64,000 nt of DNA, from NCBI RefSeq assembly GCF_900104795.1, contig NZ_FNTG01000002.1, positions 3,038,001 through 3,102,000 of the forward strand, given 5' to 3'. The notes under the pieces were generated by a model. The model was given only the letters and a program-made list of their open reading frames with translations, did no database searches and was not told the DNA's origin. Made by a program: the position numbers and the translations under genes. How positions within the stretch are numbered: position 1 is the first letter of the stretch; the number at the start of each line of letters is the position of its first letter. Shown here in pieces: positions 144 through 34,554 of the stretch. Source of the DNA: Burkholderia sp. WP9. GTDB taxonomy: Bacteria > Pseudomonadota > Gammaproteobacteria > Burkholderiales > Burkholderiaceae.

Positions 144-148
144 GGCAT

Positions 149-16047: not shown

Positions 16048-16290
16048 TATTTGTAACGATAATCGGTTTTGCCCGGGTTTTGCATGTGCTGGCGCTTGCC
16101 GCCGGCGCAGTTCGTTTCGACGAGCCCGAAAGTCCGGCAACCAAAGCCTCCCGCTGCCGCCTCGCCGCCTGCACCTGGTGCGCATGCACCAGTCGGCCTG
16201 GTGCATTGGCGATTGGCGCTCTGCCGCGATTTCGGCGATTCTCCGTGCTGGACAGGCTTTCGCGCGCGCCGCTCGCGCTCATCACCCACA

Positions 16291-17868
16291 ATGACGACAA
16301 CACACTCCGCTGCACCCTTTACCGTGGTGCAATCCAACGATCCGGACGACGCTCCGCCCGCCGACGACAAGGTGCTCCGTTCGCAGACCGACCGTCGCCA
16401 GTTGCAGCAGATCATCACCGGGCTGACCGAGGGCGTGATTCTCGTCGAGCCGGACCAGACGATCGTCTGGGCGAATCAGGCCGCGCTCGACATGCACGGC
16501 ATCACCGAAGTCGCGCAATTGGGCGCCGACGTCACCGAATACCGCGAGCGCTTTCGTCTGCGCTATCGCAACAACCATCCGCTGCCGGAAGGCAGTTACC
16601 CGATCGAACGCGTGGTCGCGGGCGAGTGCTTCAGCGACGTGGTGGTCGAAGTCTTCCCGGCGCACGACGACGAGGTGAACTGGGTGCATCGCGTGCGCAG
16701 CCTCGTGCTGACCAACGCGCGCGGCGAGCCCGACTGTCTCGCGCTGATCCTGCACGACGCCAGCGAATGGGCAAGTGCCGAGAAGCGTTTCGAGAAGACC
16801 TTCAACGCCAATCCCGCGCCGGCCGTGATCTGCCGCCTGAGCGACCAGCGTTATATCAAGGTCAATCAGGGCTTTCTCGAGATGACCGGCTATGTACGCG
16901 AGGACGTGATCGGCCGCTCGGTGTACGAGCTCGACGTGTTCGAAGGCGCCGAGCGGCGCGAACTCGCGGTCGAACGGCTGAGCGAAGGCGCGACCATTCC
17001 GCAGATGGAAGCCTTGCTGCGCTTGCCCGAAGGCGGCACGAAATTCGTGGTGGTGGCGGGCCAGCCGATCGATATCGGTGAAGAGGCCTGCATGCTGTTC
17101 ACCTTCATGGATCTGGAGCCGCGCAAACGCGCCGAGAGCGCGCTGCGCCAGAGCGAGGAACGCTTCGAGAAGTCGTTCAGGATGACGCCCGTGTCCACCG
17201 CGCTCTTCGCGGCCGACGACTACACCACGCTCGATATCAACGACGCCTTCACCGCGACTACCGGCTTCACACCCGAGGAGTTGCTGGGCAAACCGCTCGA
17301 TCAGAGCCGCCTGTGGACCGACGACGCCTGCGCGCGGATCAGCGCGGCGCTGGAGGAGAGCGGCAGCCTGCGCAACATGGAGTTCCTCGTGAACAGCCAT
17401 GCCGGCGAAGCGCTGAATTGCCTCGTTTCCGCCGAGGCGGTCAGCATCCACGGCAAGGATTGCGTGTTGATGACCTTGCTCGACATTACCGATCGCAAAC
17501 GCTCCGAAATGGAGCTGGTGACAGCGATCGAAACCGTCATGCAGGACGCCTCGTGGTTCAGCCAGACGCTGATCGAAAAGCTGGTCAACGTGCGGCGCGC
17601 GAACGCGCCCGACGCGGGCGGCCATCTCGCCGATCTGACCGCGCGCGAGCGCGACGTGTTCGCCTGCCTGTGCGGTGGCCTCGCCGACAAGGAGATCGCC
17701 CGCGAACTCGGGCTGGCGCCAAACACGGTGCGCAATCACGTCGCCACGATCTACGCGAAGCTCGACGTGCACAGTCGTGCCGAGGCAATCGTGTGGGCGC
17801 GCGCGCGTGGCCATTTCGGCCTCGAACCCGGCAGCGCGCCGCGCCGCAAAGGACCGAAACCGGCATGA
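16291..17868 (+). CDS. Triple-PAS LuxR-family sensor regulator
   Basis: A 525-residue one-component regulator from the ATG at 16291. Three PAS domains sit at about residues 35-155, 165-275 and 288-402, each preceded or followed by the linking helix type (RAESALRQSEERFEKSF, DRKRSEMELV). A LuxR/FixJ-type HTH follows at 445-505 (LTARERDVFACLCGGLADKEIARELG, then TVRNHVATIYAKLDVHSR). No membrane segment and no receiver domain, so it should sense a cytoplasmic signal directly. The frame is open further upstream, but the extension lacks similarity. No strong ribosome site is seen, so the start is uncertain. Confidence 0.85.
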   Translation: MTTTHSAAPFTVVQSNDPDDAPPADDKVLRSQTDRRQLQQIITGLTEGVILVEPDQTIVWANQAALDMHGITEVAQLGADVTEYRERFRLRYRNNHPLPEGSYPIERVVAGECFSDVVVEVFPAHDDEVNWVHRVRSLVLTNARGEPDCLALILHDASEWASAEKRFEKTFNANPAPAVICRLSDQRYIKVNQGFLEMTGYVREDVIGRSVYELDVFEGAERRELAVERLSEGATIPQMEALLRLPEGGTKFVVVAGQPIDIGEEACMLFTFMDLEPRKRAESALRQSEERFEKSFRMTPVSTALFAADDYTTLDINDAFTATTGFTPEELLGKPLDQSRLWTDDACARISAALEESGSLRNMEFLVNSHAGEALNCLVSAEAVSIHGKDCVLMTLLDITDRKRSEMELVTAIETVMQDASWFSQTLIEKLVNVRRANAPDAGGHLADLTARERDVFACLCGGLADKEIARELGLAPNTVRNHVATIYAKLDVHSRAEAIVWARARGHFGLEPGSAPRRKGPKPA

Positions 17869-18170
17869 GCGTGCGGTCGTCCTGGCGGACTCGTCGACCG
17901 GTGAGGGCGGCCGGGAACGAACCGTGCTGATGAAGTCCGGCTGGCCGGAAGGGGGCGACGCGAAGCAAGGCGTCGTTCCGCGAATGGATGCATGCCGGGA
18001 CGCGTTCAAATGCACCAGGCGATCACGTGCATTCGCGACTGTCGGCAGGCGGGCTGAGCCGGGACAATGCAATCCTGGGTCGAGTGCCAGGTGTGGAGGC
18101 GGTCACGCTTTCCCACGTATGGTGAGCTCGGCGTCTTCTGTGCAACTCAACCTTTTTAAAGGAAGCCGTC

Positions 18171-18353
18171 ATGGACAAGAATCGTGTGGAAGGTGCAGCG
18201 AAACAGGTCAAGGGTTCCGTGAAGGAAGCGATTGGCAAGGTCACCGGCAACCGGACGGCTCAGGCCGAAGGCGCGGCTGAGAAACTGGCCGGCAAGGTGC
18301 AGTCGAAGGTCGGTGAAGCCGCGGATGCGGTACGCAACCGCGTGAAGCGGTAA
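18171..18353 (+). CDS. CsbD family stress protein, short form
   Basis: A 60-residue hydrophilic CsbD protein: MDKNRVEGAAKQVKGSVKEAIGKVTGN followed by a charged helix with AEKLAGKVQSKVGEAAD. The family is induced by general stress in many bacteria; its biochemical role is unknown. A strong AGGAAG precedes the ATG. It is followed 76 bases later by a second CsbD gene; between them lies a perfect hairpin (18380-18397, CGCCGGC loop TTCC) without a T run. Confidence 0.92.
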   Translation: MDKNRVEGAAKQVKGSVKEAIGKVTGNRTAQAEGAAEKLAGKVQSKVGEAADAVRNRVKR

Positions 18354-18379
18354 CGGTAGCGAAGGCGGTCACGATAGAG

Positions 18380-18397
18380 CGCCGGCTTCCGCCGGCG
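18380..18397 (+). terminator. Perfect 7-bp hairpin between the two CsbD genes
   Basis: CGCCGGC, loop TTCC, GCCGGCG gives a perfect stem of seven G/C-rich pairs. No T tract follows, so it is more likely an attenuator or an mRNA-stabilising hairpin than a full intrinsic terminator. Confidence 0.4.
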
Positions 18398-18429
18398 ACT
18401 GCCTGACCCCCTGTTCAAGGAGGATCACG

Positions 18430-18672
18430 ATGAATTCAAACCAGTTCGAAGGTTCTGTGAAAGATGTGGCCGGCAAGGTTCAGGATGCCGTCGGCGGCTT
18501 GACGGGCGATGTGGACCTCCAGGCCGAAGGCAAGGTCCGCCAGCTTGCCGGCAAGGCGCAGGCGAAATACGGCGACAGCGTCGATCAGGTCGCCGAAACG
18601 GCTCGCAACAATCCGCTCGGCGCGCTGCTGATTGCGCTCGGTGTCGGATTTCTGTTGGGCAAGCTGATGTAA
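18430..18672 (+). CDS. CsbD family protein with hydrophobic C-terminal tail
   Basis: An 80-residue CsbD homologue (MNSNQFEGSVKDVAGKVQDAVGG..., then LAGKAQAKYGDSVDQVAE) that carries an added C-terminal segment NNPLGALLIALGVGFLLGKLM. That segment can span or insert into a membrane, as in YqjD/ElaB-like proteins. AAGGAGG stands just before the ATG. It is paired with the shorter soluble CsbD upstream, and the two are probably co-expressed under stress. A GC-rich imperfect hairpin follows the stop near 18685-18718. Confidence 0.9.
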   Translation: MNSNQFEGSVKDVAGKVQDAVGGLTGDVDLQAEGKVRQLAGKAQAKYGDSVDQVAETARNNPLGALLIALGVGFLLGKLM

Positions 18673-18822
18673 ATCTGTCACGCTCGGCGCCGCCCGGTGC
18701 ATTCGCCACCCGGGCGCCGGCGCGTGTCGTTGGGCCCGCGGGTGCCTTGGTTATCCGATGTCCGTCCGATGTTCCCGGCGCGTTAGAGGCGCCGGATCTC
18801 ATCGTCTATTCGAGGAAGGTTC

Positions 18823-19908
18823 ATGCTGGGATTCGACGTAAGCACGGCCAGAAAGGTCTGGACCGCGTTTCTTATCGCGCTGCTGTTCTTCTGCATCTAT
18901 ATGGCGTCGTCCACTGTGCTGGTGGTGGTGTTCGCCGTCTTCTTCAGTTATCTCATCTACCCGATGGTCGAGCTGGTCGAGCGCATCCGGCCGCGCCGTG
19001 TGCCGCGAGTGGCGTCGATCGCGCTGGTGTTCGTGGTGGTGGTCGCAGTGATCGCGGTGGCCGGGTCGCTGTTCGGCGTGCAGTTGCAGGATCAGGCGTC
19101 GCATCTGTTCGCGCAGTTGCCGGCCTTGATGAAGTCCGACGTACCCAATCGCTTTCCATTGCCGCATTTTCTCGAACCGTTGCGCGAGCGGATCGTGGAT
19201 TTCGTGCGCAGCCAGATTGAAACCGGCTCCGACAAGGCCGTGCCGATGGCGCGCAGCGTCGGCCTCGGCGTGGTGCATGCGGCGAGCAATCTGATCTACC
19301 TCGTGCTGATTCCGATCCTGAGCTTCCTGTTGATCAAGGAAGGTCCGCAAATGCGCGACGCGTTTCTGGACCTGCTGACGGATCGGCACCGCACGTTGTG
19401 GGCGGAGATCGTGACCGATCTGAACGTGCTGCTGTCGAAATATGTGCGTGCGATGTTGTTCCTGTCGTTGGCCACGCTGATCTGTTACGGCGTGGCGTTC
19501 TCGCTGCTCGGCGTGCCGTACGCTTTCCTGCTGGCGGTGAGCGCGGGCTTGCTGGAGTTCGTGCCGTTTGCCGGGCCGCTCGGCGCCGTGGCCATCACGT
19601 TGGTGGTGGCCGTGTTCAGCGGCTATGCGCATCTGCTCTGGCTGGTGATCTTTATCGCGCTGTACCGGCTGTTCCAGGACTACGTGCTCAATCCTTATCT
19701 GATGAGCGAAGGCGTGGAGGTCAGTCCGTTTCTCGTCATTGTCGGATTGCTGGCCGGCGATCAGCTGGGCGGCGTGGCGGGCATCTTTCTGGCGGTGCCG
19801 GTGATCGCCATGTTGAAAATCATCATTGGCCGGGCACGCGTGTTTTATTCCGCTTCACGCGATGAAGGGGAAGTCGCGCGCCGCGCGTTGACCGGCAAAA
19901 CCGACTGA
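18823..19908 (+). CDS. AI-2E family transporter
   Basis: A 361-residue membrane protein of the AI-2E (PerM/TqsA/YdiK) exporter family, with about eight helices. Conserved parts are the paired N-terminal helices, the central amphipathic region DQASHLFAQLP, and the late ALYRLFQDYVLNPYLMSEGVEVSPFLVI followed by GDQLGGVAGIFLAVPVIAM. Family members move small molecules such as autoinducer-2 or sodium/protons; the substrate here cannot be read from sequence. It lies alone after the CsbD pair and converges on the ABC operon about 100 bases further on. Confidence 0.88.
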   Translation: MLGFDVSTARKVWTAFLIALLFFCIYMASSTVLVVVFAVFFSYLIYPMVELVERIRPRRVPRVASIALVFVVVVAVIAVAGSLFGVQLQDQASHLFAQLPALMKSDVPNRFPLPHFLEPLRERIVDFVRSQIETGSDKAVPMARSVGLGVVHAASNLIYLVLIPILSFLLIKEGPQMRDAFLDLLTDRHRTLWAEIVTDLNVLLSKYVRAMLFLSLATLICYGVAFSLLGVPYAFLLAVSAGLLEFVPFAGPLGAVAITLVVAVFSGYAHLLWLVIFIALYRLFQDYVLNPYLMSEGVEVSPFLVIVGLLAGDQLGGVAGIFLAVPVIAMLKIIIGRARVFYSASRDEGEVARRALTGKTD

Positions 19909-20009
19909 TGTTTTCGGTTTGCGCGGTCAGCGACGGCTGCAGTTGCCCACCCGCCGACCGGACGAGCAGCGACCGCGACGTCGGGTATCGATGTCAGCGA
20001 ACGGCGTTG

Positions 20010-21002
20010 CTATTTGACGAATTCTGTTTTTGACCGGTCGAGCAGCAAGGCCGTCGCGAGCACGACGAGCACACCCTTGATCGCGATCTGTGTAAATGAA
20101 TTGACCCCGCTCACGTCAAGTCCGTTGCTCATTACCGTCATCACCAGCACGCCAAAAAGCGCTCTGGATACGCCCCCGACACCACCCGAGAGCGCGGTGC
20201 CGCCGATGACGGCAGCGACGATCGCGTCGAGCATCAAGTCATCGCCCATACGGGTTGTTCCCGTACTGGTACGTGCAACCAGTAAGAATCCGGCCATACT
20301 CGCGAGCAGCCCGCTCATGAGAAACGCCCCAGTCTTCACCGCTGACACGTTCACGCCCGATAGCTTCGCGACCGCCTCTCCGCCGCCAACCGTTACCAGG
20401 TTCCGACCAAAGTGCGTACAGGCTCCAACGAACCCACACAGCAGAAACACCGCGATTGAGCAAAGGCCCACGTTCGGAATTCCATTTAGCAGGTGGCCGG
20501 ACGCCAGCCACGCAATTTTCTCGTCGTCGAAAACGATATTCGCTCCGCCACAAAGCCAGCTAGACACACCCGTGAAAATACTCATAGTGCCGAGCGTGGT
20601 CAGGAACGACGGGATACGCCCCACGAGATGCGCCGCCGCATTGAATGCGCCGGCCACAAGTCCGAGGAGCATCGTCACCGGAAGTGCCCACAATCCTAAT
20701 GAATGGTCCCGAACAAGAAGTGCCGTTGCGATTGCCGAGAGTGTGGCGACCGCTCCCACGGATAGATCGATCGAACCCGTGAGAATGACAAAGCTCGACC
20801 CTGTAGCGACCAGTAACACGATTGCCGATTGTCTGATCACATTGAAGAGGTTCGGAATTGACAGGAAGCGTTCGTTGGCAAGGCCAAAGACAAGCACCTC
20901 TATCAACAATAGTGTGACGGGGAACACGGTCACTAACAATGCTTGTTGCCTGAACACTCGGAGCCGGGTGCTAATGGGATTATCTATAGAGATGTTGGGC
21001 AC
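20010..21002 (-). CDS. Sugar-type ABC importer permease (RbsC family), second copy
   Basis: A 330-residue RbsC-like permease with about nine or ten helices and the family signatures FVILTGSIDLSVGAVATLSAI, GRIPSFLTTLGTMSIFTG and AAVIGGTALSGGVGGV. It is the last gene of the operon. The frame reaches up to a TTG at 21074 that overlaps the ATPase gene, but a GTG at 21002 has GGAG 8 bases ahead and gives a normal length, so it is preferred. The operon has two distinct permeases, suggesting a heterodimeric channel, as in the E. coli galactofuranose system (YtfT/YjfF). Confidence 0.85.
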   Translation of the reverse strand: MPNISIDNPISTRLRVFRQQALLVTVFPVTLLLIEVLVFGLANERFLSIPNLFNVIRQSAIVLLVATGSSFVILTGSIDLSVGAVATLSAIATALLVRDHSLGLWALPVTMLLGLVAGAFNAAAHLVGRIPSFLTTLGTMSIFTGVSSWLCGGANIVFDDEKIAWLASGHLLNGIPNVGLCSIAVFLLCGFVGACTHFGRNLVTVGGGEAVAKLSGVNVSAVKTGAFLMSGLLASMAGFLLVARTSTGTTRMGDDLMLDAIVAAVIGGTALSGGVGGVSRALFGVLVMTVMSNGLDVSGVNSFTQIAIKGVLVVLATALLLDRSKTEFVK

Positions 21003-21057
21003 GACCTGGTCTCCATTGAAAAGAACGTTTCCGTAGGCGCCCCTACGGCTGTCAGTT

Positions 21058-22647
21058 TCACACCATATGAGCAACCAGTTGCTCTTCGGTTGGTTTGGCG
21101 TGGGGCGGGGCCAGGTACTCTTTTACAACGCGACCTTCGCGCATCACCAGGACGCGGTCACTCAACCCGATCAGTTCAGGTAGATCGTCGGAAATGATCA
21201 GGATTGCCATTCCCTCGTCGGCGAGGTCGCGTATGAGCGAGTAAATCTCCTCTTTTACGCCGACGTCGATGCCTCTTGTTGGATTGTCCATCACCAGGAC
21301 TTTGGGATTTGCCAAAAGCCATTTGGCAAGCACGACCTTTTGTTGATTGCCGCCACTTAGATGCACGCAAAGTTGTGTTGCACTGGCGCATTTGATCCGC
21401 AGCCGCTCGATCCTGGCTCGAACCTCCCTATTTTCTCTGGCTACAGGAACGAGCGGCAGACCGAAGACCCGCATCTTCGGCAAGGCGACCAGACTGACGT
21501 TTGAGCGCACGGGAAGGTACAGTATTACGCCTTCAGTCTTTCGCTCACGTGGAACATAGGCGACGCCAGCGGCAATCGAAGAGCGTGCGCGATCGCGATC
21601 GTGCAGCGTTTGACCCGCAACACGTACCGAGCCATGACGCGGATAGGGCCACGCTCCCGCAATGGCGCGTCCAACGGCTTCCTTGCCACAACCCAGAAGG
21701 CCGCCAATTCCCAGCACCTCACCGCATCGCAGAGAAAACGAGACGTCGACAACGCCGTTGCCGGATATCCCGTCGATTTCCAGAATGGGCTGCGCCAACA
21801 CGTTATTGGCCCGTAGGCCTTGTCGTTCCTCCTTGTAGTAGTTTGCTGCACGCTTGCGGCCGACCATCAGTTCGTGCAGCCGTTTCTCCGTCATCTCCGG
21901 CTTCATCAGTTCGGCGACGTTTTCACCGTCCTTGAGCACGTACAGGCGATCGCAGTGTTCCGTGTACTCATGCAGGCGATGGGTAACCAGAACAAAGGAG
22001 GCCCGGTGCCTGAGGGCATTGACGCGTTTGAACAATGACTCAGCCCCATGTTCGCTAATCGCCGCTGATGGCTCATCGAGCAGAATGATGGGTGACTCCT
22101 TTCGATAAAGAGCCGCCAATGCGAACGCTCGCGCAATCTCGATCATCTGGCGATCCTCGAAGCCCAACGAGCCGACCAGAACCGTGGGACTGATATGTTC
22201 GAGGTCCAGGTCCACCAAGGCCTTGCTGGCGGCGTCGATCGCACCCTTGCGGTTGTTTCGCCCAAATGCACTCTTGAATGCGCTCTCGTGGGCCAGAAAA
22301 ATGTTCTCGTACACGGCGAGGTTTTGCACGAGTGCCTGGTCCTGAAACACCATCGAGATTCCGGCCCTGACCGATGCGCGGTAGCCTTGTGGCGCGTACG
22401 GGTTCGCATCGAGCGTGAGCGTACCTGAGTCCGGCCGGACAATTCCGCCCAGCACCTTCAGCGTAGTGGACTTGCCCGCGCCGTTCTCACCCGCGATCCC
22501 CAGAATCTCCCCCGCCTCGACGTGCAGGCTCACCGATCTGAGCACTGGAATGCCCGCATAGGCTTTACTGACGCGATCGGCTACGAGACGGGTCGAATCA
22601 CGCTTCACCGCGTCGATAACCGGTTCGACAGACTTCACGCCGTTCAT
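21058..22647 (-). CDS. Sugar-type ABC importer ATPase with two nucleotide-binding domains
   Basis: A 529-residue fused ATPase of the RbsA/MglA class. First domain: Walker A GENGAGKST, Walker B ending in ILLDEPSAAIS. Second domain: a degenerate Walker A (GLLGCGKEA) but a clear signature LSGGNQQKVVLAKWLLANP and Walker B VLVMDNPTRGIDVG. This asymmetry is usual for the class. The start at 22647 overlaps the stop of the permease upstream (ATGA at 22644-22647). The frame is open further upstream, but that part shadows the permease gene. Confidence 0.92.
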   Translation of the reverse strand: MNGVKSVEPVIDAVKRDSTRLVADRVSKAYAGIPVLRSVSLHVEAGEILGIAGENGAGKSTTLKVLGGIVRPDSGTLTLDANPYAPQGYRASVRAGISMVFQDQALVQNLAVYENIFLAHESAFKSAFGRNNRKGAIDAASKALVDLDLEHISPTVLVGSLGFEDRQMIEIARAFALAALYRKESPIILLDEPSAAISEHGAESLFKRVNALRHRASFVLVTHRLHEYTEHCDRLYVLKDGENVAELMKPEMTEKRLHELMVGRKRAANYYKEERQGLRANNVLAQPILEIDGISGNGVVDVSFSLRCGEVLGIGGLLGCGKEAVGRAIAGAWPYPRHGSVRVAGQTLHDRDRARSSIAAGVAYVPRERKTEGVILYLPVRSNVSLVALPKMRVFGLPLVPVARENREVRARIERLRIKCASATQLCVHLSGGNQQKVVLAKWLLANPKVLVMDNPTRGIDVGVKEEIYSLIRDLADEGMAILIISDDLPELIGLSDRVLVMREGRVVKEYLAPPHAKPTEEQLVAHMV

Positions 22648-23600
22648 TTCACCAACCCCGCGCGACGATCGTTCATCAGAATCACCGCGATCAAAACCAT
22701 CGCCCCCTTGATGATCGTTTGTAAATACGGTTGAACTGCCAGGAGGTCCAAGCCGTTGGCTACAAGGGCAATGATCAGTGTGCCGACCAACACGCGCCAT
22801 ACACTGCCGACGCCGCCGGTGACAAATATTCCTCCGAGGACGATAGCGGCAATCACTTGAAGCGTAAGTGAATCCCCCATGGATACAGTCGCCGTGCCCA
22901 GGCGTGCCGTCATTAGTGCTCCCGCCAGGCCGGCCACCGCACCGGACAGCGCAAAGACCAGGATCTTGCATCGACCCACGCGCACACCCAACAGCGCCGC
23001 TATACGTTCGTTGCCTCCGACGGCCATTACGTGACGGCCAAATAGAGTCCTCGTATTCAGCCAACCCAAAACGAGATACACGATCAACGCGCACAGACCA
23101 AGGTTTGGCAAGCCGTAGACCAGTTGCCCTCGTGCCAGCTGCTGAAAGTTTTCATCGATGACACGAATCGGTGAGCCGTTCGTCAGCATCAGCGCGACGC
23201 CACTCAGCGAGGTCATCATTCCTAGCGTGCCAAGAAATGATGGGATGCGCAATCCGACGTGGACAACGCCGTTTGCCGATCCCAATATGGCGCCCACAAG
23301 CACGCCTGCCAGAACGGCCGCGATGCCGAGTTGAGGAACGAGCATCGCTGTGATAATTCCAGCAACCGTCGCTACAGCGCCCACGGACAGGTCAATGCAT
23401 CCAAGAAGCACGACAAATGCGCTTGACGACGCAACTGTTAGCAGAATTGCGGCGTACAGAACAATGTTGCTGAGGTTCGCAATACTCAAAAATTCCCGGC
23501 TCTTTAACGAGAATGCGGCGTAAAGAGCTAGCAGTACGACCGTCGGCGCGACTCTTGTCGCCCTGGTGCGACTGCGTAGCGATGTGATCGATGTCGACAC
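22644..23600 (-). CDS. Sugar-type ABC importer permease (RbsC family), first copy
   Basis: A 318-residue RbsC-like permease with the same architecture as the other permease of this operon (FVVLLGCIDLSVGAVATVAGI, GLRIPSFLGTLGMMTSLSG, IVLGGIFVTGGVGSV) but clearly divergent from it. It begins 13 bases after the binding-protein stop and overlaps the ATPase start by four bases, so translation is coupled. Likely partner of the second permease in one transporter. Confidence 0.9.
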   Translation of the reverse strand: MSTSITSLRSRTRATRVAPTVVLLALYAAFSLKSREFLSIANLSNIVLYAAILLTVASSSAFVVLLGCIDLSVGAVATVAGIITAMLVPQLGIAAVLAGVLVGAILGSANGVVHVGLRIPSFLGTLGMMTSLSGVALMLTNGSPIRVIDENFQQLARGQLVYGLPNLGLCALIVYLVLGWLNTRTLFGRHVMAVGGNERIAALLGVRVGRCKILVFALSGAVAGLAGALMTARLGTATVSMGDSLTLQVIAAIVLGGIFVTGGVGSVWRVLVGTLIIALVANGLDLLAVQPYLQTIIKGAMVLIAVILMNDRRAGLVK

Positions 23601-23613
23601 GGTTTACATGGAC

Positions 23614-24828
23614 TCAGAAAGTGAGTTTCTGTTTATAGTGATCTGCGTATTCCGCGCGGATCTTCTGGTCGTCATGGTTCTTGATCGCGTCCTGGTAGGC
23701 TGCCGGTAGCTGATATCCTGCCGGCCGCGGCGTTTTTGCGTAGCCCCATATCTTCACGGGATCCATCGGCCACATGGAGTTTTGCGGGTCCCAGTCGTTC
23801 GGGTGCAGAACGTGTGACATTTTTCGCCAGTCATACGGAAGCTTCCCGCTATTGAAAACCTTCTCATAGGCGTCCACATTGTTTGAGCTGATGAGCACCG
23901 CGCCGGTATACATCATCGACTCGGTCGGGCTGGGCTTCCATCCATGCGCTACGTCGTACGCCCAAACCATTGCATAGCCGGATTGCCACGCGGGCAGGCT
24001 GCTTATGGTGGCGAGAATGCGGCCCTCCCTGATCAGTTTGATGGTCTCCACGCTGCCGTCAAAGCCGATGATAGGAACTTTCAGGCCTGCTTCCTCGTTC
24101 GCCTGCAATACGCCAATGGCCTCTGAATCATTTTCGGCGAAGACGCCATCGATCTTCGGATGCGCGACGATGGCATCTTCCATTACTTTGCGCGAGTCGA
24201 TCTGGTTCCAGTTGCCGGACTGCGAAGCAACGACCTTGATGGCTGGGAACTCTTTCAACGCGCGGTCGAACCCGGTGTTTCTGACCATCACGGCTGATGA
24301 CCCCGGGTAGCCGGTAATCTGGACAACGTTGCCTTTTCCGCCCATCTTCTGAAAGAGAAGCTTGGCGATCTGATAGGCATTGGCGTCGTCGTCGGGTTCG
24401 AAGAAGCCGGCATAGGCGTGGTTCGGGACGTCGAGAGGGTGATACCACGGCACGGTATCCCAGACACCAACGTAATATCCGCCGGCGTCACGGACCTTGC
24501 TGACGAACGCAGGAATGTTGCCGATGTTCTGTGCGTTGCCAAAGAACAGCTTCGTCCCTGCCTGAAGTTGCGACTCATAGTTCTGGAGTTGTTTGGTGGG
24601 ATCGCCTTCGTTGGTCAACGCCCGATATTCGATGCCCAGCGCATCGGCGGCGGAACGTGCGCCGCGGTCCCAGTTAGAGAAGTATTCGATATTCAGGCTG
24701 GTCACTTCTCCAACAACCACTTTTTGCCCCAGCGCCTCAGTAGAAGCCACGAGTAACGCGGCCGTCAGAATCGCCGGGGCGAAAGCACAAGCGGTCACGA
24801 AAAGGCCGCAACGAGAGGAGTTTGCCAT
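23614..24828 (-). CDS. Periplasmic sugar-type binding protein of the ABC importer
   Basis: A 404-residue exported protein with a signal peptide of about 35 residues (hydrophobic stretch FVTACAFAPAILTAALLVAS). A type I periplasmic binding fold follows: VVVGEVTSLNIEYFSNWDRGA, TKLFFGNAQNIGNIPAFVSK, VVQITGYPGSSAVMVRN, DGVFAENDSEAIGVL. It is longer than RbsB at the C-terminus, with a Pro/Trp-rich end. AGGAGA lies at good distance from the ATG. The ligand is unknown. It starts 54 bases after the giant sensor gene in the same direction. Confidence 0.88.
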   Translation of the reverse strand: MANSSRCGLFVTACAFAPAILTAALLVASTEALGQKVVVGEVTSLNIEYFSNWDRGARSAADALGIEYRALTNEGDPTKQLQNYESQLQAGTKLFFGNAQNIGNIPAFVSKVRDAGGYYVGVWDTVPWYHPLDVPNHAYAGFFEPDDDANAYQIAKLLFQKMGGKGNVVQITGYPGSSAVMVRNTGFDRALKEFPAIKVVASQSGNWNQIDSRKVMEDAIVAHPKIDGVFAENDSEAIGVLQANEEAGLKVPIIGFDGSVETIKLIREGRILATISSLPAWQSGYAMVWAYDVAHGWKPSPTESMMYTGAVLISSNNVDAYEKVFNSGKLPYDWRKMSHVLHPNDWDPQNSMWPMDPVKIWGYAKTPRPAGYQLPAAYQDAIKNHDDQKIRAEYADHYKQKLTF

Positions 24829-24882
24829 TTCATGTCTCCTGCTGTTTGAGGGTTTTGTCCGCGAGCGTAACGAGTCAAGACT

Positions 24883-27800
24883 TCATCGACGGTCCGCAAC
24901 GATCGCGGGCAACGTGAATTGAAAAGTCGCGCCTCGTCCAGTGACTTCGGCGACCCACAAGCGCCCGCCATGCGATTCGACAATCGAACGGCTGATACGA
25001 AGCCCCATGCCGGTGCCGTGGGATTTGGTTGTAAAGAACGGGTCGAAAATCTGTTCCGCAAGCAGCGGCGGAACCCCTATGCCGGTGTCACTGACTGAAA
25101 CCAGAATCTGGTCGTTTTCGGCGCGCCGCGACCTGATCGCCATCTGACGCATTCCATCGACTTCCTTCATGGCTTCGATGCTGTTGACGATCAGATTCAT
25201 CGCGACCTGCTGCAACTGCACCCGATCGCCAATGATAGGAGGAAGCCCTGCGGGCAGTTCAGTGCGGACCGATATGTCGTATCGCGCTGCCTCGCCGCGC
25301 AGAAGGGCGGCAGTTTCCCGGATGATTTCGCTTATGTCGACAACCTCGCGATTTAGCGCGCCTTTTTCGAATTGTGTGCGAATCCTGCCGATAATCTGGG
25401 CTGCGCGTTGTTCGTCACTGACGATTCTGGTGGCGGCCGCCCGCGCTTCATCGAGATTCGGCATGTCACGATCAAGCCATCGCAGGCAAGCGTTCGCATA
25501 GGCGATAGCAGCAGTAATCGGTTGATTGAGCTCGTGTGCCAGGGAAGCGGTGAGTTCTCCCATGGTTGTCGCCCGGTTGATGCGCGCCAGATCGGTCAGC
25601 GCCTGGCGCAAGACCTCTTCTGCCCGCTTGCGTTCCGTGATGTCACGAACGGCTCCGATAAATTCAAGGTTGCCGATATTGACCGCCCGGCCCGTGGCAT
25701 GGACATGCTTGATTCTCCCGTCCGGCATGACGAAACGATGTTCGCTGTCGAAATCTTTCTTCTCGGTGATGGCCGCTTCAAGCGTTCGGCGAACAGCGTC
25801 CCGGTCTTCGGGGTGCATGCGTTGTACTGCGAGGTTGACGGAGGGCGTAACTCCGCGATCATATTCAAGTATGTTGTAACCTTCCTCCGACCAGTAATGC
25901 TCTCCGCTTGCAATGTTCCAGCCGAAGCTGCCTGTGTGACTGATCCTTTGCCCTTCGGCCAGGAAGGCTTCGCTGCGTTGCAGGTCGGTAAAAAGAGCGG
26001 CATTGGCCAGCGAAATAGCCGCTTGCGAAGCCAGCAACCGCAGTACCGCAACCCGGTCCGACGTGAAGACGCCCGGCGCCAGGTTGTTCTCCAGATAGAG
26101 TGCGCCGACAAGCTTCTTCTGCTTGATGATCGGCAGACACAGCATGGACCGGGCACCGCGCTGACGAATGTATTCGTCGGTCGAGAAGGCACTGTCGGCT
26201 GCGGCGTCGTGCAGGAGCAAACTCTCCTTGGTCCGCAAAACGAACTGGAAGACGGATGCCGGAAGATCCGCGCCAGTTATGGTCGCCTGGCGCAGCGCAA
26301 CGATCAGCCCATCTACGCCGGTTGTGGCCTCCGCTTCGATCCGATATTCTTTCGCGCGCGGCAGAATCAATATTCCACGTTCGGCGCCGGCATATTCAAT
26401 GGCCGTGCGCATGAGCGTATCGATCAGCTTTTCGTGCTCGATCTCGCCCGATACGGCCTCAGATACGCGGATGACTGTCGCCAGATCGAACTGTTCGACG
26501 GGGGCGAGAATCGTGCTCGTGTCGGACGACGTATTCTCTGCTCTAAACTGCGGATGTCGCTCCTCGATCTGCCGCACCTTCGCGTTCGCACCCCAGCGTA
26601 GATAGCAGTCCCGGGCGTCCCGGAAATAAGCATGCGCGATGCGTGCAAAGCCGCGTGCCAGATAAAAGCGAGCAGTGATCTCGTTGGCGGTGGCTTCGTT
26701 GTGGACGAGGCCTGCGGCGTGTGCTGAACTGATGGCGCGCTCGTACAGCCCTTCTGCGTCGAGCGCCCGCCCTTCGATGCGCGCCAGCTCCGCCGCGACC
26801 AGTGCCGCCCGGCTGGCAAAATTCTCGGGGCAATTCAGTGCCCATATGTTGAGCTTTTCCAGATGTTCCGCCAACCTCGCGCGATGAAATGTGCGATTCC
26901 CGGACGCGGCGAGATCATGAACGGCCGCATGGCTTAGCGCGGCGTAAAAGCGGTACTCGACGGTCTCGAGGGAAAACACGAAATTCCACAGCAATGGCTG
27001 CGCCTTTGAAGCCGCTTGCAAAGCGTCCTCGTAATCGCCCGCAAGGAAACGTGCCTGCAGCTTGCAAATGTAGTACCAGAATATCGGGAATGTCAGCGTG
27101 GGTGCGTCAGCCAGCTTGCGCTCAAAATCGGGTTCACTGAACCCGGCGTCGTTGAAAGAGCCAAGGCGGGCGGTCAATCCCCGCAGGCTGCGAATGAGAC
27201 CGAGTTGGCTCGAGATCCATGCCTCGGCTGTTCCGATGCGGACTTTACGAGCGAACACCAGTGCGGATTCAGCTTGCTTCTGAGTCTCGGCCAACGGGTC
27301 GCCGGCCATGAGATAGTTGGTATTGATCTGGCCACACGCGTATCCCGCGTAACTTATCTCACCACTTTGGCTGGCGAGGTCGAAGGCACGAAACAGGAAC
27401 GCCCGCCCATTTCGGACATGCTGAGTCCAGGCTATGATGAAACCAAATGCCTCGAATGTTCTCGCTTGATAGCGCCGGAACCCCGGTCGTCCGACCAGAT
27501 CGCATCCCAGCCGGCCGAAGCGGTAACCCGCGTCGAATTGGCCGAAGACCGGTCCTGCCAGATAACCCACCTGCGCGTAGGCGATACACGAAGCATCGCT
27601 GTGACCTCGCTCAAGTCCTAAGCCAACAGCCGTACAAACGATCACGGCGAGCAGATGAATGGATTCGAAGTGATGCCCTGGGACTGCAACCCGGATCAGA
27701 AGATCCAGAGCGGCCAATGCGTCCGGATCGCTCGCGAGCGGCAGATCGACAAGGTCTTCGATGGTGCGAGTACCTAACCGGCTCCAGATACCGTCGTACG

Positions 27801-30378
27801 CCTGTCGAGCGTCGGCTTGCGTCGGATGCTCGGGAATGTCGACGCCGAGGTGTTGTAACGCAAGCAAACCCACTGCGACCGCATCACCGTTACGATCGAT
27901 TGCCTGATAGAGATCAACTTGCACGCAGGCCACCGCGGCGCGCTCTCCGGCTGTGACGGCACGAATGGCAAGGCCGCGCAGACGCTCTTCGGCTTTCGCG
28001 ATCGCACCGGACGCAAACTCGCACTGCGCGGTGCTCAACTCCAGCGCAAAGATGAGTTCACGACGCTGCTGCCAGCTATCCTCCGTGAGCAATGCGGATC
28101 CTGCGGTCAAGTAGTTCAATGCGGATATAGAGGCAGACGAGGCTTGGGCACGCTTGCCGGCAAGCAGATTGAATTCTGCCAGCCGCTCGCGCTCTCGCGG
28201 CGCCGTCATTAGGGACGACGCGCGGTTGAGCTGATTGACGATATCGAAGAGGGCTTCGTCCAGCAAACCGGGGGGCGTATGGGCGACGAGCATCCTGCCA
28301 ACGCGCAGATGCATGGCGGCGCGCCGCTCGGTGGGAATCAGCGCATAAGCAGCCTCGTGGACGCGATCGTGAACGAACCGGTACGAGTTTTCGAGGAAAT
28401 CGACCAACTCCTGACGACGTGCCTCAACGAAGTTCGCGTGCAACTCCTGCTCGGTCATGTCGTGAACCATCGCCAACATCGCGGTAGTCGCGATGTTGCC
28501 CAGACAGGCCAGTTGTTGCAGTGCCTGCTGGGTCGCGGCGGGGAGCCGGACCAGCTTGTCTATCATCAGGTCGACCACATTGTCGGTGTAACCCTTTGCG
28601 TTGATGCGTTCGATATCCCAAAACCAGCGCGAATGCGCGGCATCGAACGCTATCAAACCTTCGTCCGTCAAGGCCGACAGGAACTGATTGACGAAGAAGG
28701 GGTTGCCACCGGTCTTTTGCAGAATCAGCTGGGCCAGATCGGTTGTTCTATGCGCTTCACAATGCAACGCGTCCGCGATCAACTGGGAAACGTGCTCGGC
28801 ATCGAGTGTGCCCAGCGTGATCTCCTCGACGGTGGACACGCCAGCTGTTTTGATCGCGTCGAGCTTACGCATCAGCGGATGCGAGGCGTCCACCTCGTTG
28901 TCGCGATAGGCGCCAATGAGAAGCAGGTGTGGGAGGCAGTCGTGGGTGAGGAGATCCTCGAGCAGATCCAGAGTAGCTGTGTCGAGCCACTGCAGGTCGT
29001 CGAAGAACAGGGCGAGCGGATGCTCAGGGCGCGCGAAGACACCAATGAAACGCCGCAGTAGCGATTGAAAGCGTCGTTGGGCATCGACCGCCGCCAACTC
29101 AGGAACCGGCTCCTGCTCTCCGATGATGAGCTTGAGTTCCGGAACCAGATCGACGATAAGGCCCGCTTGCGACCCAAGTGCATCGCGCAACTTCTCCCGC
29201 CACTGGTCGAATTCGGCTTCACTCTTGCCGAGAACAGGACGGATCAACCGTTGAAAGGCCTGCGCAAAAGTTGCATACGGAATGTCGCGCTTGTATTGGT
29301 CGAACTTGCCCGATGCAAATAGACCGCGGGGCGGAACCAGAGCCTTGTGAAGTTCATTGACCAACGACGACTTGCCAATTCCCGTATAGCCCGACACGAG
29401 AATCAATGCCGTCGTCGGGCATTCGACTATGCTGTCAAAGGCATTGTGCAATGCGGCGATTTCGCGCGCGCGTCCGTACAGTTTCTCGGGAATCAAAAGC
29501 CGCCCGGGCGGCTCGCGTCGAGCGAGGGCGAAGGGCTTGATGCGCTGCCGGCTTTCCCACTGAATCACACACTCACGCAGATCCTGCACCAGTCCAACCG
29601 CTGTCTGGTAGCGCTCCTCCGCCGTCTTCGCGAGAAGCTTCATAACAATATCCGACACAGGCGTGGGTATGTCGGTGAACCGCTGGTTCGGCGCGAGCGG
29701 CTTACGTGCGATATGACAGTGCACCCATTCCATCGGATCGGCACCCGTGAAAGGAAGGGTGCCGGTCAATACTTCGTACAGCGTGATACCGAGCGAATAG
29801 AGATCGCTGCGGGAATCGACCGATCGGTTCATACGCCCTGTCTGTTCGGGTGACATGTAAGCCAGGGTGCCGGCAATGATCTCGGGGGGCTCGGGCGGCA
29901 GGCGTTCACGGGGCAACTGGGAGGCGATGCCAAAGCCGGTAAGCCACACGTGGCCGGCATGGTCAACCAGTGCGTTGGCAGGTTTGACGTCCCTATGGAT
30001 GAGCCCGCGCCGGTGGGCCTCGCCAACCGCTGCCGCAAGACCAATGGCGATGCGCAAAAAACAGATCGGTTCGAGCGGATGTTCCTTGTGCTGCTCGATG
30101 ATGTGGTCCAGGGGTTCGCCGCCCGGATCCTTGAGAATGAGGGTCGCGCGACCTTGATGGCGGGTCAGTTCGAGTGGCTGAGCTGACCACGCATCATCGA
30201 GTTTCGACGCAAGCGACCATTCGTGTTCGAGCCGCCGAATGCTCGTAGGGGACGGCTGCTCCGAGGCGACCGCCAACGCCAAAACCTGCATCTGGTTGCC
30301 GAGCTCCCTGCCGCGGTAGAGCGTGAAGTCCGCCGATTCTCGAATCGGCGCCAGCAAGTACCCGGAATCCTCTGCCAT
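24883..30378 (-). CDS. Kinase-like/AAA ATPase/GAF-PAS histidine kinase giant protein
   Basis: 1831 residues. Order: Ser/Thr kinase-like fold (about 10-275; HRDVKPAN at 128-135, GFG at 148-150 in place of DFG, then GTLAYMSPEQTGRMN); AAA_16-type ATPase (Walker A GYTGIGKSS at 330-338, Walker B LALFFDDLQW near 455-464); a long helical, TPR-like middle (about 650-1280); GAF (about 1310-1460); PAS (about 1475-1590); HisKA with phospho-acceptor His near 1615 (SLAHELNQP); and HATPase (NLIVNSIEAM, DTGIGVPP, GTGMGLRI). No membrane helices, so cytoplasmic. The family is known as trifunctional kinase/ATP-binding/histidine kinase. The Lys of strand 3 is also not recognisable (VLALAVAS), so the first domain looks like a pseudokinase. 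It probably shares a transcript with the ABC genes downstream. Two response regulators lie nearby at 36-37 kb. Confidence 0.92.
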   Translation of the reverse strand: MAEDSGYLLAPIRESADFTLYRGRELGNQMQVLALAVASEQPSPTSIRRLEHEWSLASKLDDAWSAQPLELTRHQGRATLILKDPGGEPLDHIIEQHKEHPLEPICFLRIAIGLAAAVGEAHRRGLIHRDVKPANALVDHAGHVWLTGFGIASQLPRERLPPEPPEIIAGTLAYMSPEQTGRMNRSVDSRSDLYSLGITLYEVLTGTLPFTGADPMEWVHCHIARKPLAPNQRFTDIPTPVSDIVMKLLAKTAEERYQTAVGLVQDLRECVIQWESRQRIKPFALARREPPGRLLIPEKLYGRAREIAALHNAFDSIVECPTTALILVSGYTGIGKSSLVNELHKALVPPRGLFASGKFDQYKRDIPYATFAQAFQRLIRPVLGKSEAEFDQWREKLRDALGSQAGLIVDLVPELKLIIGEQEPVPELAAVDAQRRFQSLLRRFIGVFARPEHPLALFFDDLQWLDTATLDLLEDLLTHDCLPHLLLIGAYRDNEVDASHPLMRKLDAIKTAGVSTVEEITLGTLDAEHVSQLIADALHCEAHRTTDLAQLILQKTGGNPFFVNQFLSALTDEGLIAFDAAHSRWFWDIERINAKGYTDNVVDLMIDKLVRLPAATQQALQQLACLGNIATTAMLAMVHDMTEQELHANFVEARRQELVDFLENSYRFVHDRVHEAAYALIPTERRAAMHLRVGRMLVAHTPPGLLDEALFDIVNQLNRASSLMTAPRERERLAEFNLLAGKRAQASSASISALNYLTAGSALLTEDSWQQRRELIFALELSTAQCEFASGAIAKAEERLRGLAIRAVTAGERAAVACVQVDLYQAIDRNGDAVAVGLLALQHLGVDIPEHPTQADARQAYDGIWSRLGTRTIEDLVDLPLASDPDALAALDLLIRVAVPGHHFESIHLLAVIVCTAVGLGLERGHSDASCIAYAQVGYLAGPVFGQFDAGYRFGRLGCDLVGRPGFRRYQARTFEAFGFIIAWTQHVRNGRAFLFRAFDLASQSGEISYAGYACGQINTNYLMAGDPLAETQKQAESALVFARKVRIGTAEAWISSQLGLIRSLRGLTARLGSFNDAGFSEPDFERKLADAPTLTFPIFWYYICKLQARFLAGDYEDALQAASKAQPLLWNFVFSLETVEYRFYAALSHAAVHDLAASGNRTFHRARLAEHLEKLNIWALNCPENFASRAALVAAELARIEGRALDAEGLYERAISSAHAAGLVHNEATANEITARFYLARGFARIAHAYFRDARDCYLRWGANAKVRQIEERHPQFRAENTSSDTSTILAPVEQFDLATVIRVSEAVSGEIEHEKLIDTLMRTAIEYAGAERGILILPRAKEYRIEAEATTGVDGLIVALRQATITGADLPASVFQFVLRTKESLLLHDAAADSAFSTDEYIRQRGARSMLCLPIIKQKKLVGALYLENNLAPGVFTSDRVAVLRLLASQAAISLANAALFTDLQRSEAFLAEGQRISHTGSFGWNIASGEHYWSEEGYNILEYDRGVTPSVNLAVQRMHPEDRDAVRRTLEAAITEKKDFDSEHRFVMPDGRIKHVHATGRAVNIGNLEFIGAVRDITERKRAEEVLRQALTDLARINRATTMGELTASLAHELNQPITAAIAYANACLRWLDRDMPNLDEARAAATRIVSDEQRAAQIIGRIRTQFEKGALNREVVDISEIIRETAALLRGEAARYDISVRTELPAGLPPIIGDRVQLQQVAMNLIVNSIEAMKEVDGMRQMAIRSRRAENDQILVSVSDTGIGVPPLLAEQIFDPFFTTKSHGTGMGLRISRSIVESHGGRLWVAEVTGRGATFQFTLPAIVADRR

Positions 30379-31124: not shown

Positions 31125-31376
31125 CCACGCCTACCGCTATACGTAGTTCTGCGAAAACGACAAGGCGTTGACGAAAGACTGAAGCGCTCGATACGTCAGA
31201 TCCGCCGCGCTGGCAACACGCTGGTTGTCTAGTTTGCCGCTCCTATGTTGCCGCTGACCACCGGGTCGCCGCGTATCTCTTTGTGACCGCCACGGGTCCC
31301 GCTAACGGCGCGAGTGAAACGAGGGCGGACTGGCTGGGCGGCATCCGGCGGTTGTCAACGTACTTGTCGCGTCACT

Positions 31377-32435
31377 TCATGCGGACTGCTTTAGTTCTTC
31401 CGGCTGCATGCGCTCCGGATTGAGCCAGACTTCATCCTTCAATTTCCAGTTGCGCGTCGATCGGGACCAACGCCGTGGATTGCGCTGCCTGGCCTGTGCA
31501 TAAACGGCCTCACGTTGCGCAAGCACTGCAGTCGCCACGCCGTTATGGCGCTGCACCGGCGTGACGAATTTCAGGCCGCTGTGTTTGTGCTCATGGTTGT
31601 ACCAGCGCACAAACTGCTGCGTCCAGGCCCGTGCCTCATCCACGTTGCCGAACGGCTTGCGTGGGTAGTCGGGCCGGTACTTGCAGGTCCGGAACAGCGA
31701 CTCCGCGTACGGGTTGTCGTTACTCACACGCGGCCGGCTAAACGAGGCCACGACCCCCAGGTTTTCCAGGGTGGCGAGCATCGTCGCACCCTTCATCGGG
31801 CTGCCGTTATCCGAGTGCAGCACCAGAGGACGTCCTGCCAGGCCCTCGGCCAGACTGGCACGCCGCATCAGCAACGCGGCCAGTTCCGCCGATTCGGCTT
31901 CATGCACTTCGTGAGCAACAATCTTGCGGCTGAACACGTCCAGCATCATGTACCAGTAGTAGTACTGGCCCTTGACCGCCGCCGGCATCCACGTGATGTC
32001 CCACGACCAGACCTGGTTCGGCGCCGTCGCACAATGACTGGTAACCACCCGGGCCGAGGGCTTGCGCGCACGACCCCGGTGGTGCTGCTGCGAAGCGCTG
32101 CGCAGCACGCGGTAAAAGCTCGATTCCGACGCGACATACACGCCGCGATCCGCCAGACTCGGCACGATCTGGCTGGGTGGCAGGCTGGCAAACTCCGCAC
32201 AGTTTGCGACCTCCAGAATCTGCTGCCGTTCGGCCTCACTCAGTTTGTTTCGCGGCGGCGGCCGCCCGGTCATCGTGCGGCCATCGGCGAGCACCGCGTC
32301 GCCGTTACCCACCCAGCGCTGGAACGTGCGCAGGCTCAGGCCCAGCTCGTTGCAGGCCTGCTCCAGCCGGCAGCCTGACTGCGCCGCCTCGCGTATCAAC
32401 GATACACATAACAGGCGATCCGGGACGTTGATCAA
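31377..32435 (-). CDS. IS3-family transposase OrfB (DDE domain), copy 1
   Basis: The 352-residue second frame of the element. The DDE integrase core is intact: WSWDITWMP (first Asp), VLHSDNGSPMKG (second Asp), NPYAESLFRTCKY (Glu). A helix-turn-helix-like part precedes it. The TTG at 32435 overlaps the orfA stop (TTGA), but the usual product is an OrfAB fusion made by -1 slippage on the A7 run at 32468-32474 (A AAA AAA, then G). The shifted frame reads KKSPGDLGRQRGRLINVPDRL without stops. The fusion is about 517 residues. Confidence 0.9.
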   Translation of the reverse strand: MINVPDRLLCVSLIREAAQSGCRLEQACNELGLSLRTFQRWVGNGDAVLADGRTMTGRPPPRNKLSEAERQQILEVANCAEFASLPPSQIVPSLADRGVYVASESSFYRVLRSASQQHHRGRARKPSARVVTSHCATAPNQVWSWDITWMPAAVKGQYYYWYMMLDVFSRKIVAHEVHEAESAELAALLMRRASLAEGLAGRPLVLHSDNGSPMKGATMLATLENLGVVASFSRPRVSNDNPYAESLFRTCKYRPDYPRKPFGNVDEARAWTQQFVRWYNHEHKHSGLKFVTPVQRHNGVATAVLAQREAVYAQARQRNPRRWSRSTRNWKLKDEVWLNPERMQPEELKQSA

Positions 32436-32929
32436 TCGTCCTCTTTGTCTCCCCAGATCGCCTGGGCTTTTTTTCTCAGAATCAGCAGCGCAGCCGCTTC
32501 CGCCAGCGCCTTCTCCTTGCGCTGCAATTCCTTCTCGAGCTGCTGGATGCGCTTTTTGTCGTCCTTCGACTGCTGGCGCTGCTCGCGTGCCTGCTCCGTG
32601 GCATTCGCATTGGCCGAACGGCAAGCGGCCCGCCAGGCGGCTATCTGTTCTGGATAAAGACCCTTCCGGCGGCAATACTCGGCCAGCTCCGCTGCATTGA
32701 GCGGCGCGCTCTCCAGCACTACTGCAAACTTGTCCTCCGAAGACCATCCTTCGGGATTCTTCCCATCGCCAGGCACGACCAACCCTTGTCCTTTCGCCTG
32801 TCGGCGCCACGTGTACAACGTCTGTTCGGTAATTCCCGTTTCCCTGGCCAGCGCCGACACCAGCGCGTTTTCCGGCGGCATCATGCGCCGCACCAGCGCT
32901 TCTTTTCTTTCTGCTGAGTAGGCTTTCAT
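32432..32929 (-). CDS. IS3-family OrfA (HTH, leucine zipper), copy 1
   Basis: A 165-residue DNA-binding subunit: HTH with ALARETGITEQTLYTWRRQAKGQG, a second HTH-like part (ELAEYCRRKGLYPEQIAAWR), then a coiled coil rich in Lys/Glu (DDKKRIQQLEKELQRKEKALAEA). It is longer than most IS3 OrfA proteins because of the second HTH. It recognises the element ends and regulates transposition; the slippery run for OrfAB lies near its C-terminus. Confidence 0.9.
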   Translation of the reverse strand: MKAYSAERKEALVRRMMPPENALVSALARETGITEQTLYTWRRQAKGQGLVVPGDGKNPEGWSSEDKFAVVLESAPLNAAELAEYCRRKGLYPEQIAAWRAACRSANANATEQAREQRQQSKDDKKRIQQLEKELQRKEKALAEAAALLILRKKAQAIWGDKEDD

Positions 32930-33190
32930 TCACCCTGATTTTACCGCCCCCGGACCATGTCTATAGGAATCAGATAACACGACAAGTAGTCTGACGCCGG
33001 GGGCATCTCGCGTGCGTTGACCTTCTACGGTGCGCTGCCGCAGATGACCGGACATGGAGGTTGTGATCCAGGTGGCCGAACGCTGGATCATGGCGCGTGT
33101 GTCATCAGCGGTTTGCCTCGGTCCAATCGGTCAACGAGGGGATCGGTCCGCTAATCAGGAACGTGAACGAGCGTGCGGATCGGACTCAAG

Positions 33191-33982: not shown

Positions 33983-34056
33983 CCCCCGGCGTCAGACTAC
34001 TTGTCGTGTTATCTGATTCCTATAGACATGGTCCGGGGGCGGTAAAATCAGGGTGA

Positions 34057-34554
34057 ATGAAAGCCTACTCAGCAGAAAGAAAAGAAGCGCTGGTGCGGCG
34101 CATGATGCCGCCGGAAAACGCGCTGGTGTCGGCGCTGGCCAGGGAAACGGGAATTACCGAACAGACGTTGTACACGTGGCGCCGACAGGCGAAAGGACAA
34201 GGGTTGGTCGTGCCTGGCGATGGGAAGAATCCCGAAGGATGGTCTTCGGAGGACAAGTTTGCAGTAGTGCTGGAGAGCGCGCCGCTCAATGCAGCGGAGC
34301 TGGCCGAGTATTGCCGCCGGAAGGGTCTTTATCCAGAACAGATAGCCGCCTGGCGGGCCGCTTGCCGTTCGGCCAATGCGAATGCCACGGAGCAGGCACG
34401 CGAGCAGCGCCAGCAGTCGAAGGACGACAAAAAGCGCATCCAGCAGCTCGAGAAGGAATTGCAGCGCAAGGAGAAGGCGCTGGCGGAAGCGGCTGCGCTG
34501 CTGATTCTGAGAAAAAAAGCCCAGGCGATCTGGGGAGACAAAGAGGACGATTGA
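34057..34554 (+). CDS. IS3-family OrfA, copy 2
   Basis: Identical in translation to the OrfA of copy 1 (165 residues: HTH, second HTH-like region, coiled coil). The A7-G slippery run is at 34512-34518, with the zero frame reading AGA AAA AAA GCC. The stop TGA at 34552-34554 overlaps the TTG of orfB. Confidence 0.9.
   Translation: MKAYSAERKEALVRRMMPPENALVSALARETGITEQTLYTWRRQAKGQGLVVPGDGKNPEGWSSEDKFAVVLESAPLNAAELAEYCRRKGLYPEQIAAWRAACRSANANATEQAREQRQQSKDDKKRIQQLEKELQRKEKALAEAAALLILRKKAQAIWGDKEDD

Follow-up and report, generated by a model that had tools for sequence, protein, structure and literature searches.

A giant predicted histidine kinase beside a sugar-type importer in Burkholderia sp. 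WP9: an adjacency that looks like a lineage-specific join of separate units

Background

Proteins that combine a Ser/Thr-kinase-type domain with the parts of a sensor histidine kinase have been described from more than one branch of life. The cyanobacterial HstK or cbSTKIII dual kinases (e.g., Alr2258) carry a Ser/Thr-kinase-type domain, a GAF domain and a HisKA domain in one protein (PMC2176072), and the fungal group X hybrid histidine kinases, such as Mak2 and Mak3 of S. pombe and Chk1 of C. albicans, unite a Ser/Thr-kinase or kinase-related domain with GAF and histidine kinase domains and have been tied to oxidative stress (PMC5383687 and PMC4965123). Homologues of the bacterial sensor that is the subject of this report bear the name "trifunctional serine/threonine-protein kinase/ATP-binding protein/sensor histidine kinase" in plasmid records and in our protein search. 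This class is large and common: in the protein search, every one of the 8000 candidates that were scored, 8000 of 8000, lay beyond E 1e-200. Under the annotation name, no study on an input of this class in bacteria was seen among the papers listed. A precedent for a link between a regulator and an importer is provided by MalT, a STAND regulator that binds maltotriose and is bound and controlled by MalK, the ATPase of an importer (PMC6468293).

In Burkholderia sp. WP9, a gene for a giant sensor of this class lies directly upstream of a cluster of genes for an importer that resembles the RbsABC, AraFGH and XylFGH (CUT2) systems. The window analysed here is the whole stretch of 64,000 nucleotides that contains both units, and all positions refer to it. 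An earlier note on this DNA described a sensor of 1831 residues ending 54 bases before the gene for a substrate-binding protein (SBP), followed by coupled or closely spaced importer genes on one strand, and this description was borne out by the open reading frames and their order:

24883-30378, minus strand: giant sensor, 1831 aa, intact frame
23614-24828, minus strand: CUT2-type SBP, 404 aa, Peripla_BP_4
22644-23600, minus strand: importer permease 1, BPD_transp_2, GTG start
21058-22647, minus strand: importer ATPase, 529 aa, ABC_tran in two stretches
20010 to about 21002, minus strand: importer permease 2, BPD_transp_2, start codon uncertain (longest frame from 21074)

The importer block (20010-24828, minus strand) thus has the order SBP-permease-ATPase-permease, and its frames, like that of the sensor, are intact. 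The gap between the sensor stop and the SBP start is 54 bp, the SBP gene and permease 1 are 13 bp apart, the ATG of the ATPase gene overlaps the permease stop by 4 bp, and about 55 bp separate the ATPase gene from permease 2; a longer frame of the ATPase that reaches 23094 is merely open.

The giant sensor

By its predicted domains, the sensor is a histidine kinase with many parts that resembles the HstK and Chk1 proteins. Pfam places the following domains in it:

residues 49-258: Pkinase-like
residues 299-488: AAA_16
residues 1316-1457: GAF
residues 1494-1566: PAS_3
residues 1606-1667: HisKA
residues 1717-1825: HATPase_c

The domain order of the HstK/trifunctional class (kinase-like, AAA ATPase, GAF, HisKA/HATPase) is therefore present, and the middle region behind the ATPase gives a weak TPR-type match (PF25503, TPR_CHK1) of 25.3 bits, below the cut-off of 27. 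The Ser/Thr-kinase-type, GAF and HisKA domains are shared with the HstK/cbSTKIII proteins as described in the literature, but the window sensor is proteobacterial and has neither a beta3 Lys nor a DFG Asp in its kinase-type domain. With the fungal group X proteins it has in common the same domain types and the weak TPR_CHK1 match, but it is without their fused receiver domain. It also stands apart from the trifunctional annotation group, in that it falls below the cut-off of all 25 NCBIfam models shown (of 88 matching).

The motifs of the histidine kinase and of the STAND-type ATPase are well preserved. The H, N and G boxes are all found (AHELNQP at 1614, MNLIVNSIEAM at 1727, DTGIG at 1764 and GTGMGL at 1788), and among 114 sensors, whose selection is given below, the H-box pattern occurs in 105; the pattern for the last G box fits merely 9 of them, and no family-wide claim is made for that box. 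Walker A (GYTGIGKSS at 330) and Walker B (LFFDDLQWLD at 457) have patterns that recur in 114 and 110 of the 114 sensors, respectively.

Structure modelling gives the first domain a kinase fold like that of PknB (pLDDT 89; best match 5u94, TM 0.77). It keeps H128-R129-D130, K132 and N135, but has no beta3 Lys and shows G148-F149-G150 where the DFG motif would supply its Asp. The same pattern extends across an alignment of 214 sensors (not dereplicated), in which the HRD Asp is kept in 97% and the DFG Asp is replaced by Gly in 96%, and in which no column corresponds to a beta3 Lys: up to residue 70, Lys never exceeds 36%, and the column that reaches this value is residue 57, behind the third strand. 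These percentages were taken from alignment columns instead of from an HRD regular expression, which missed 70 of the 214 sensors. The complete active site of a Ser/Thr kinase (beta3 Lys, HRD Asp and DFG Asp) is thus lacking, so we do not claim the domain as a Ser/Thr kinase; "pseudokinase-like module" describes it best, and this character is family-wide and not peculiar to the window protein. The suggestion that this domain lacks recognisable catalytic residues is right for the beta3 Lys and the DFG Asp and wrong for the HRD Asp, K132 and N135, and a fully non-catalytic-looking first domain is rejected because the HRD Asp is retained.

A mean Kyte-Doolittle value of 1.6 is often used as a cut-off for hydrophobic stretches. 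The window sensor has a single 19-residue stretch above this value, at 904-922 between the ATPase and GAF domains (mean 1.93), and Pfam recognises no periplasmic domain in the protein. Stretches above 1.6 occur in 67 of the 114 sensors and above 2.0 in 4. The sensor is probably soluble.

The sugar-type importer

The Peripla_BP_4-type SBP, the tandem ABC ATPase and the BPD_transp_2 permeases identify the importer, by sequence, as a CUT2-type system with a predicted sugar-like substrate. It differs from RbsABC, AraFGH and XylFGH in its longer SBP with a conserved C-terminal extension and in having two different permease genes. The SBP model (pLDDT 88) matches ribose-type or similar SBPs over about 300 of its 404 residues (2rjo), and the extension, encoded at 23614-23856 in the window, has invariant W346, D347, Q349 and W361 in 27 aligned sequences of the family. 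The order SBP-permease-ATPase-permease is kept in 10 of the 11 nearest SBP-family loci, the eleventh (L050) being cut by a contig end. None of the NCBIfam models shown for substrate subfamilies (ribose, xylose, arabinose, galactose or allose) reaches its cut-off with the importer, 25 of 188 models having been shown for the ATPase. Of 12 loci with relatives of the importer, 8 have an amidase gene nearby and 5 a Tm-1-like/PEP-hydrolase pair (annotation names), and the importer of Paraburkholderia sp. LEh10 is accompanied by an SDR gene and a GFO/IDH/MocA gene; these neighbours point to no substrate, and hence none is claimed.

Two further observations concern the importers. In the second Walker B of ABC ATPases, the Asp is usually followed by Glu (DEP). 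The window ATPase differs from this, and from its RbsABC, AraFGH and XylFGH counterparts, by an Asn in that position (DNP), as do 6 of 8 other ATPases examined; the pattern was not found in the remaining 2. Upstream of the LEh10 importer (L015:11148-12845), there is a gene for a 565-aa protein, possibly a sugar-binding regulator, in which an SBP_bac_1 domain is joined by a MarR-type match that is weak and stays below the cut-off.

The junction and the nearest relatives of each unit

The nearest readable relatives of the sensor and of the importer come from different genomes, and their homologies to the window meet in one short interval:

24868-24905, minus strand: sensor/importer junction, with the sensor stop codon inside it

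Homology to the nearest readable sensor orthologue (G073, L018; 76%) ends at 24905, and homology to the importer of LEh10 (L015; SBP 74%) starts at 24868, a leader of 37 nt included. The match between the window and LEh10 leaders scores 52, as compared to a highest score of 22 among 500 shuffles of the letters, and the DNA that follows the sensor in G073 reaches 15, inside the range of its shuffles. The LEh10 upstream region beyond these 37 nt has not been retained in the window, and a Bradyrhizobium leader (L043) resembles neither the window nor the LEh10 leader. In G073, the sensor is followed on the same strand by a YdcZ-family gene, and no SBP of the window type was found in that genome at E<=1e-80. 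The LEh10 importer has its own intergenic region, with the SDR gene sitting between SBP and permease. No sensor lies within 10 kb of this nearest readable importer orthologue (L048); among the matches listed, its contig carries two giant sensors, the nearest about 119 kb away. We infer that the LEh10 layout is ancestral.

The two units also differ in their distribution. At E<=1e-60 the SBP was found in 2 of 144 genus genomes (its own and LEh10), and at E<=1e-250 the sensor was found, among the matches listed, in 74 of 117. Among plasmid records, a single relative of the importer passed E<=1e-60; it is from Bradyrhizobium sp. 62B, and the part read around it contains no sensor. In protein searches, relatives of sensor and SBP turned up at matched divergence, at 91/92% (both metagenomic, from different sources) and at 82/86% (both named Paraburkholderia sediminicola), and the join may for this reason predate this one genome. 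The P. sediminicola sensor relative is on a contig of 45,890 and the SBP relative on three contigs, the longest of 57,240, which does not settle their adjacency.

A variable stretch around both units

Both units lie within a long stretch that is missing next to the same flank gene in relatives:

19,909 to about 75,867 (window-based numbering; 19909-64000 inside the window): variable stretch, about 56 kb, absent beside the same flank gene in relatives
31346-33003, minus strand: IS copy, 1658 bp, with an rve transposase ORF
33983-35640, plus strand: second IS copy, 1658 bp, inverted, 100% identical
56187-57844: third IS copy, 1658 bp, identical

The flank gene, of AI-2E type (18823-19908), was found in 32 of 141 genomes, its own included, and 8 of the 31 others were read for the comparison. 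Homology stops at 19,908-19,926 in all 8. In 6 of them it is picked up again at 75,864-75,870, with 1.4-1.5 kb of other DNA in between in 5 cases and 10.9 kb in 1, and in the other 2 no resumption was seen within the stretch read. The GC content falls at 20 kb, from 0.645 (1-19,908) to 0.576 (19,909-60,000). It is also low in the right flank (0.582 at 75,871-84,000), so that composition marks the left border only. No tRNA gene was found in the window, in the WP9 DNA up to 84 kb or in the stretches of 5 relatives, nor was an integrase established at the borders. This IS-rich variable stretch is probably a genomic island. A gene for a 2-oxoglutarate dehydrogenase E1-like protein of 961 aa (39496-42381) is also among its contents.

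Neighbourhoods of 114 sensors and 80 importer loci

The 114 sensors were drawn from the window, from 79 genus loci, from 20 loci elsewhere in the family and from 9 loci on plasmids. The regions were selected: most are full-length matches with the higher scores among those listed, away from contig ends, and near-duplicates (e.g., L164/L165) are included. Neighbours were counted if they were gene-called or visible to BLAST, and expectations by position are our own arithmetic from gene counts in the WP9 genome. A scan of the genome collection with the single SBP as query gave no relatives; an alignment of 27 SBPs did find them, and the best 80 loci were taken, with flanks of up to 10 kb and often shorter.

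The next gene after the sensor is convergent in 66 of the 114 cases and uncalled in 2. Followers on the same strand lie within 100 bp of 9 sensors, 101-300 bp from 21 and beyond 300 bp from 16. A close same-strand follower, as in the window, is thus uncommon and not unique. Apart from the window importer, these followers are LuxR-type response regulators (L164, L165, L226), histidine kinases (L016, L162), a GNAT protein (L169), an alpha/beta hydrolase (L017) and, by annotation, a MerR regulator (L042), i.e., two-component proteins in 5 of 8.

Close relatives of the importer parts were found within 7 kb of none of the 113 other sensors, and a giant sensor in none of the 80 SBP-family loci, 3 of which match just its histidine-kinase part. 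CUT2-like parts lie within 7 kb of 4 of the 114 sensors, window included, a lower bound inasmuch as the search saw homologues of the window importer parts; 5 further sensors have nothing but matches to other ABC ATPases (24-30%) at this distance. With 34 SBP genes in the 9 Mb of the WP9 genome, about 8% would be expected by position, and 4 of 114 is not in excess of this; a systematic association of sensor and importer is rejected on these grounds. One other sensor does precede an importer: in G065 (L024:11359-18081; L035), 81-141 bp, according to the start codon taken, separate a giant sensor from another kind of CUT2-type importer behind it, which is about 30% identical to that of the window and whose ATPase and permease form one 844-aa frame. 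In G004 (L206:1656-9037), genes for a BPD_transp_2 permease, a GMC oxidoreductase, an Fe-ADH, an SBP and a cupin lie on one strand upstream of a giant sensor.

In the earlier note, the importer had been proposed to feed or monitor the sensor, an idea that homologues in which the two units never lie together were to count against. The surveys lend it no support, and in the loci that could be searched, G073 and LEh10 among them, the two units are indeed apart, with the G065 sensor preceding another importer.

Probable response-regulator partners

The same note contrasted this sensor, next to an importer, with the response regulators usually associated with its class. The contrast fails, as two such genes lie in the window itself, 5.7-6.9 kb upstream of the sensor and on its strand:

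36635-37294, minus strand: LuxR-type response regulator, probable native partner of the sensor (from neighbourhood)
36084-36428, minus strand: lone receiver-domain protein, 114 aa, probable partner (from neighbourhood)

The two inverted IS copies, with 979 bp between them, intervene between these genes and the sensor. The regulator and receiver are 86% and 80% identical to a pair upstream of the L019 sensor on the same strand, and 89-91% and 86-87% identical to pairs downstream of the L148-L150 sensors, where the regulator is on the opposite strand. LuxR-type regulators (>=40% identity, >=180 aa) lie within 4.5 kb of 42 of the 114 sensors, the window regulator (at 6.3 kb) not being counted; the WP9 genome has 6 full-length matches at >=39%, the window regulator itself included, in 9.02 Mb, from which about 1% would be expected by position. 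Judged by these neighbourhoods, the LuxR-type regulator and the lone receiver are likely to be native partners of the sensor.

Origin and expression of the adjacent units

The adjacency looks like a lineage-specific join, and the explanation that we hold to be probable is that two independent systems were joined by recombination inside the IS-rich variable stretch. The sensor and the importer would then be separate, ordinary systems. The STAND-type ATPase, the middle region and the GAF/PAS part of the sensor would probably take a cytosolic signal, and its kinase would most likely phosphorylate the LuxR-type regulator and/or the lone receiver (36084-37294), as the neighbourhoods suggest. Transcription of the importer would probably come from read-through out of the sensor gene or start at a promoter within the sensor 3' end, given that the join kept just 37 nt resembling the LEh10 leader.

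Co-transcription of sensor and importer is plausible, in view of the single strand, the 54-bp gap, the coupled importer genes and the outcome of a weak consensus scan, which showed neither a sigma-70-like promoter nor a terminator-like site on the sensor strand from 24600 to 25300. A strong promoter and terminator at 24829-24882, which had been named as evidence against a joint transcript, were accordingly not seen, by a scan that is too weak to decide the matter. It also showed no promoter upstream of the sensor or upstream of the LEh10 importer, and for that reason says little about the junction. A promoter invisible to it may therefore sit within the sensor 3' end and serve the importer alone, leaving the units adjacent and not co-expressed; the blank scan of the junction and the loss of the LEh10 upstream region beyond 37 nt speak against this arrangement, which we consider rather unlikely.

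A functional link between the two units is unproven and, by comparison of loci, appears improbable. Were the sensor to read the importer, either the imported sugar or the ATPase of the transporter would be bound in the cytosol by the STAND ATPase of the sensor and the region that follows it, as in MalT, and the kinase output would control sugar uptake or use. The Walker A and B motifs of the ATPase, the weak TPR-type match behind it, the 54-bp spacing on one strand, the relative pairs at matched divergence and the second neighbour pair in G065 are consistent with such a design, for which MalT and MalK offer the precedent (PMC6468293). The likeness is an analogy of working only, a STAND-type ATPase beside an importer; the output of the window sensor is a histidine kinase, as opposed to the transcription activation of MalT, and there is no conserved genetic link (0 of 113 sensors and 0 of 80 importer loci). 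The CUT2-like parts near sensors also stay within the positional expectation, and the G065 importer is just about 30% identical, so we judge this reading improbable. Its evolutionary version, in which a histidine kinase of the STAND type whose kinase domain is degenerate captured the importer into its transcription unit, used the importer ATPase or imported sugar as the input of a MalT/MalK-like switch with phosphotransfer to the LuxR-type regulator, and was kept by a young clade represented by the 91/92% and 82/86% pairs, seems to us very improbable. Contact in the periplasm, with the SBP presenting its ligand to the sensor as in XylFII-LytS/AgtS-type systems, can call on known SBP genes beside sensor kinases (PMC11113362) and on the stretch at 904-922, but we give it almost no weight and reject it, as that stretch is the only one, lies between ATPase and GAF domain, belongs to a family in which such values are distributed as buried helices would give, and is accompanied by no recognised periplasmic ligand-binding part.

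Significance

If the adjacency in WP9 is a mere join of separate units, it provides a clean example of how a foreign gene can come to stand in front of a transporter through recombination, and it cautions against deducing function from a single pair of genes. Should a clade instead have kept the two together, this would give a first input for a large and common class of sensors.
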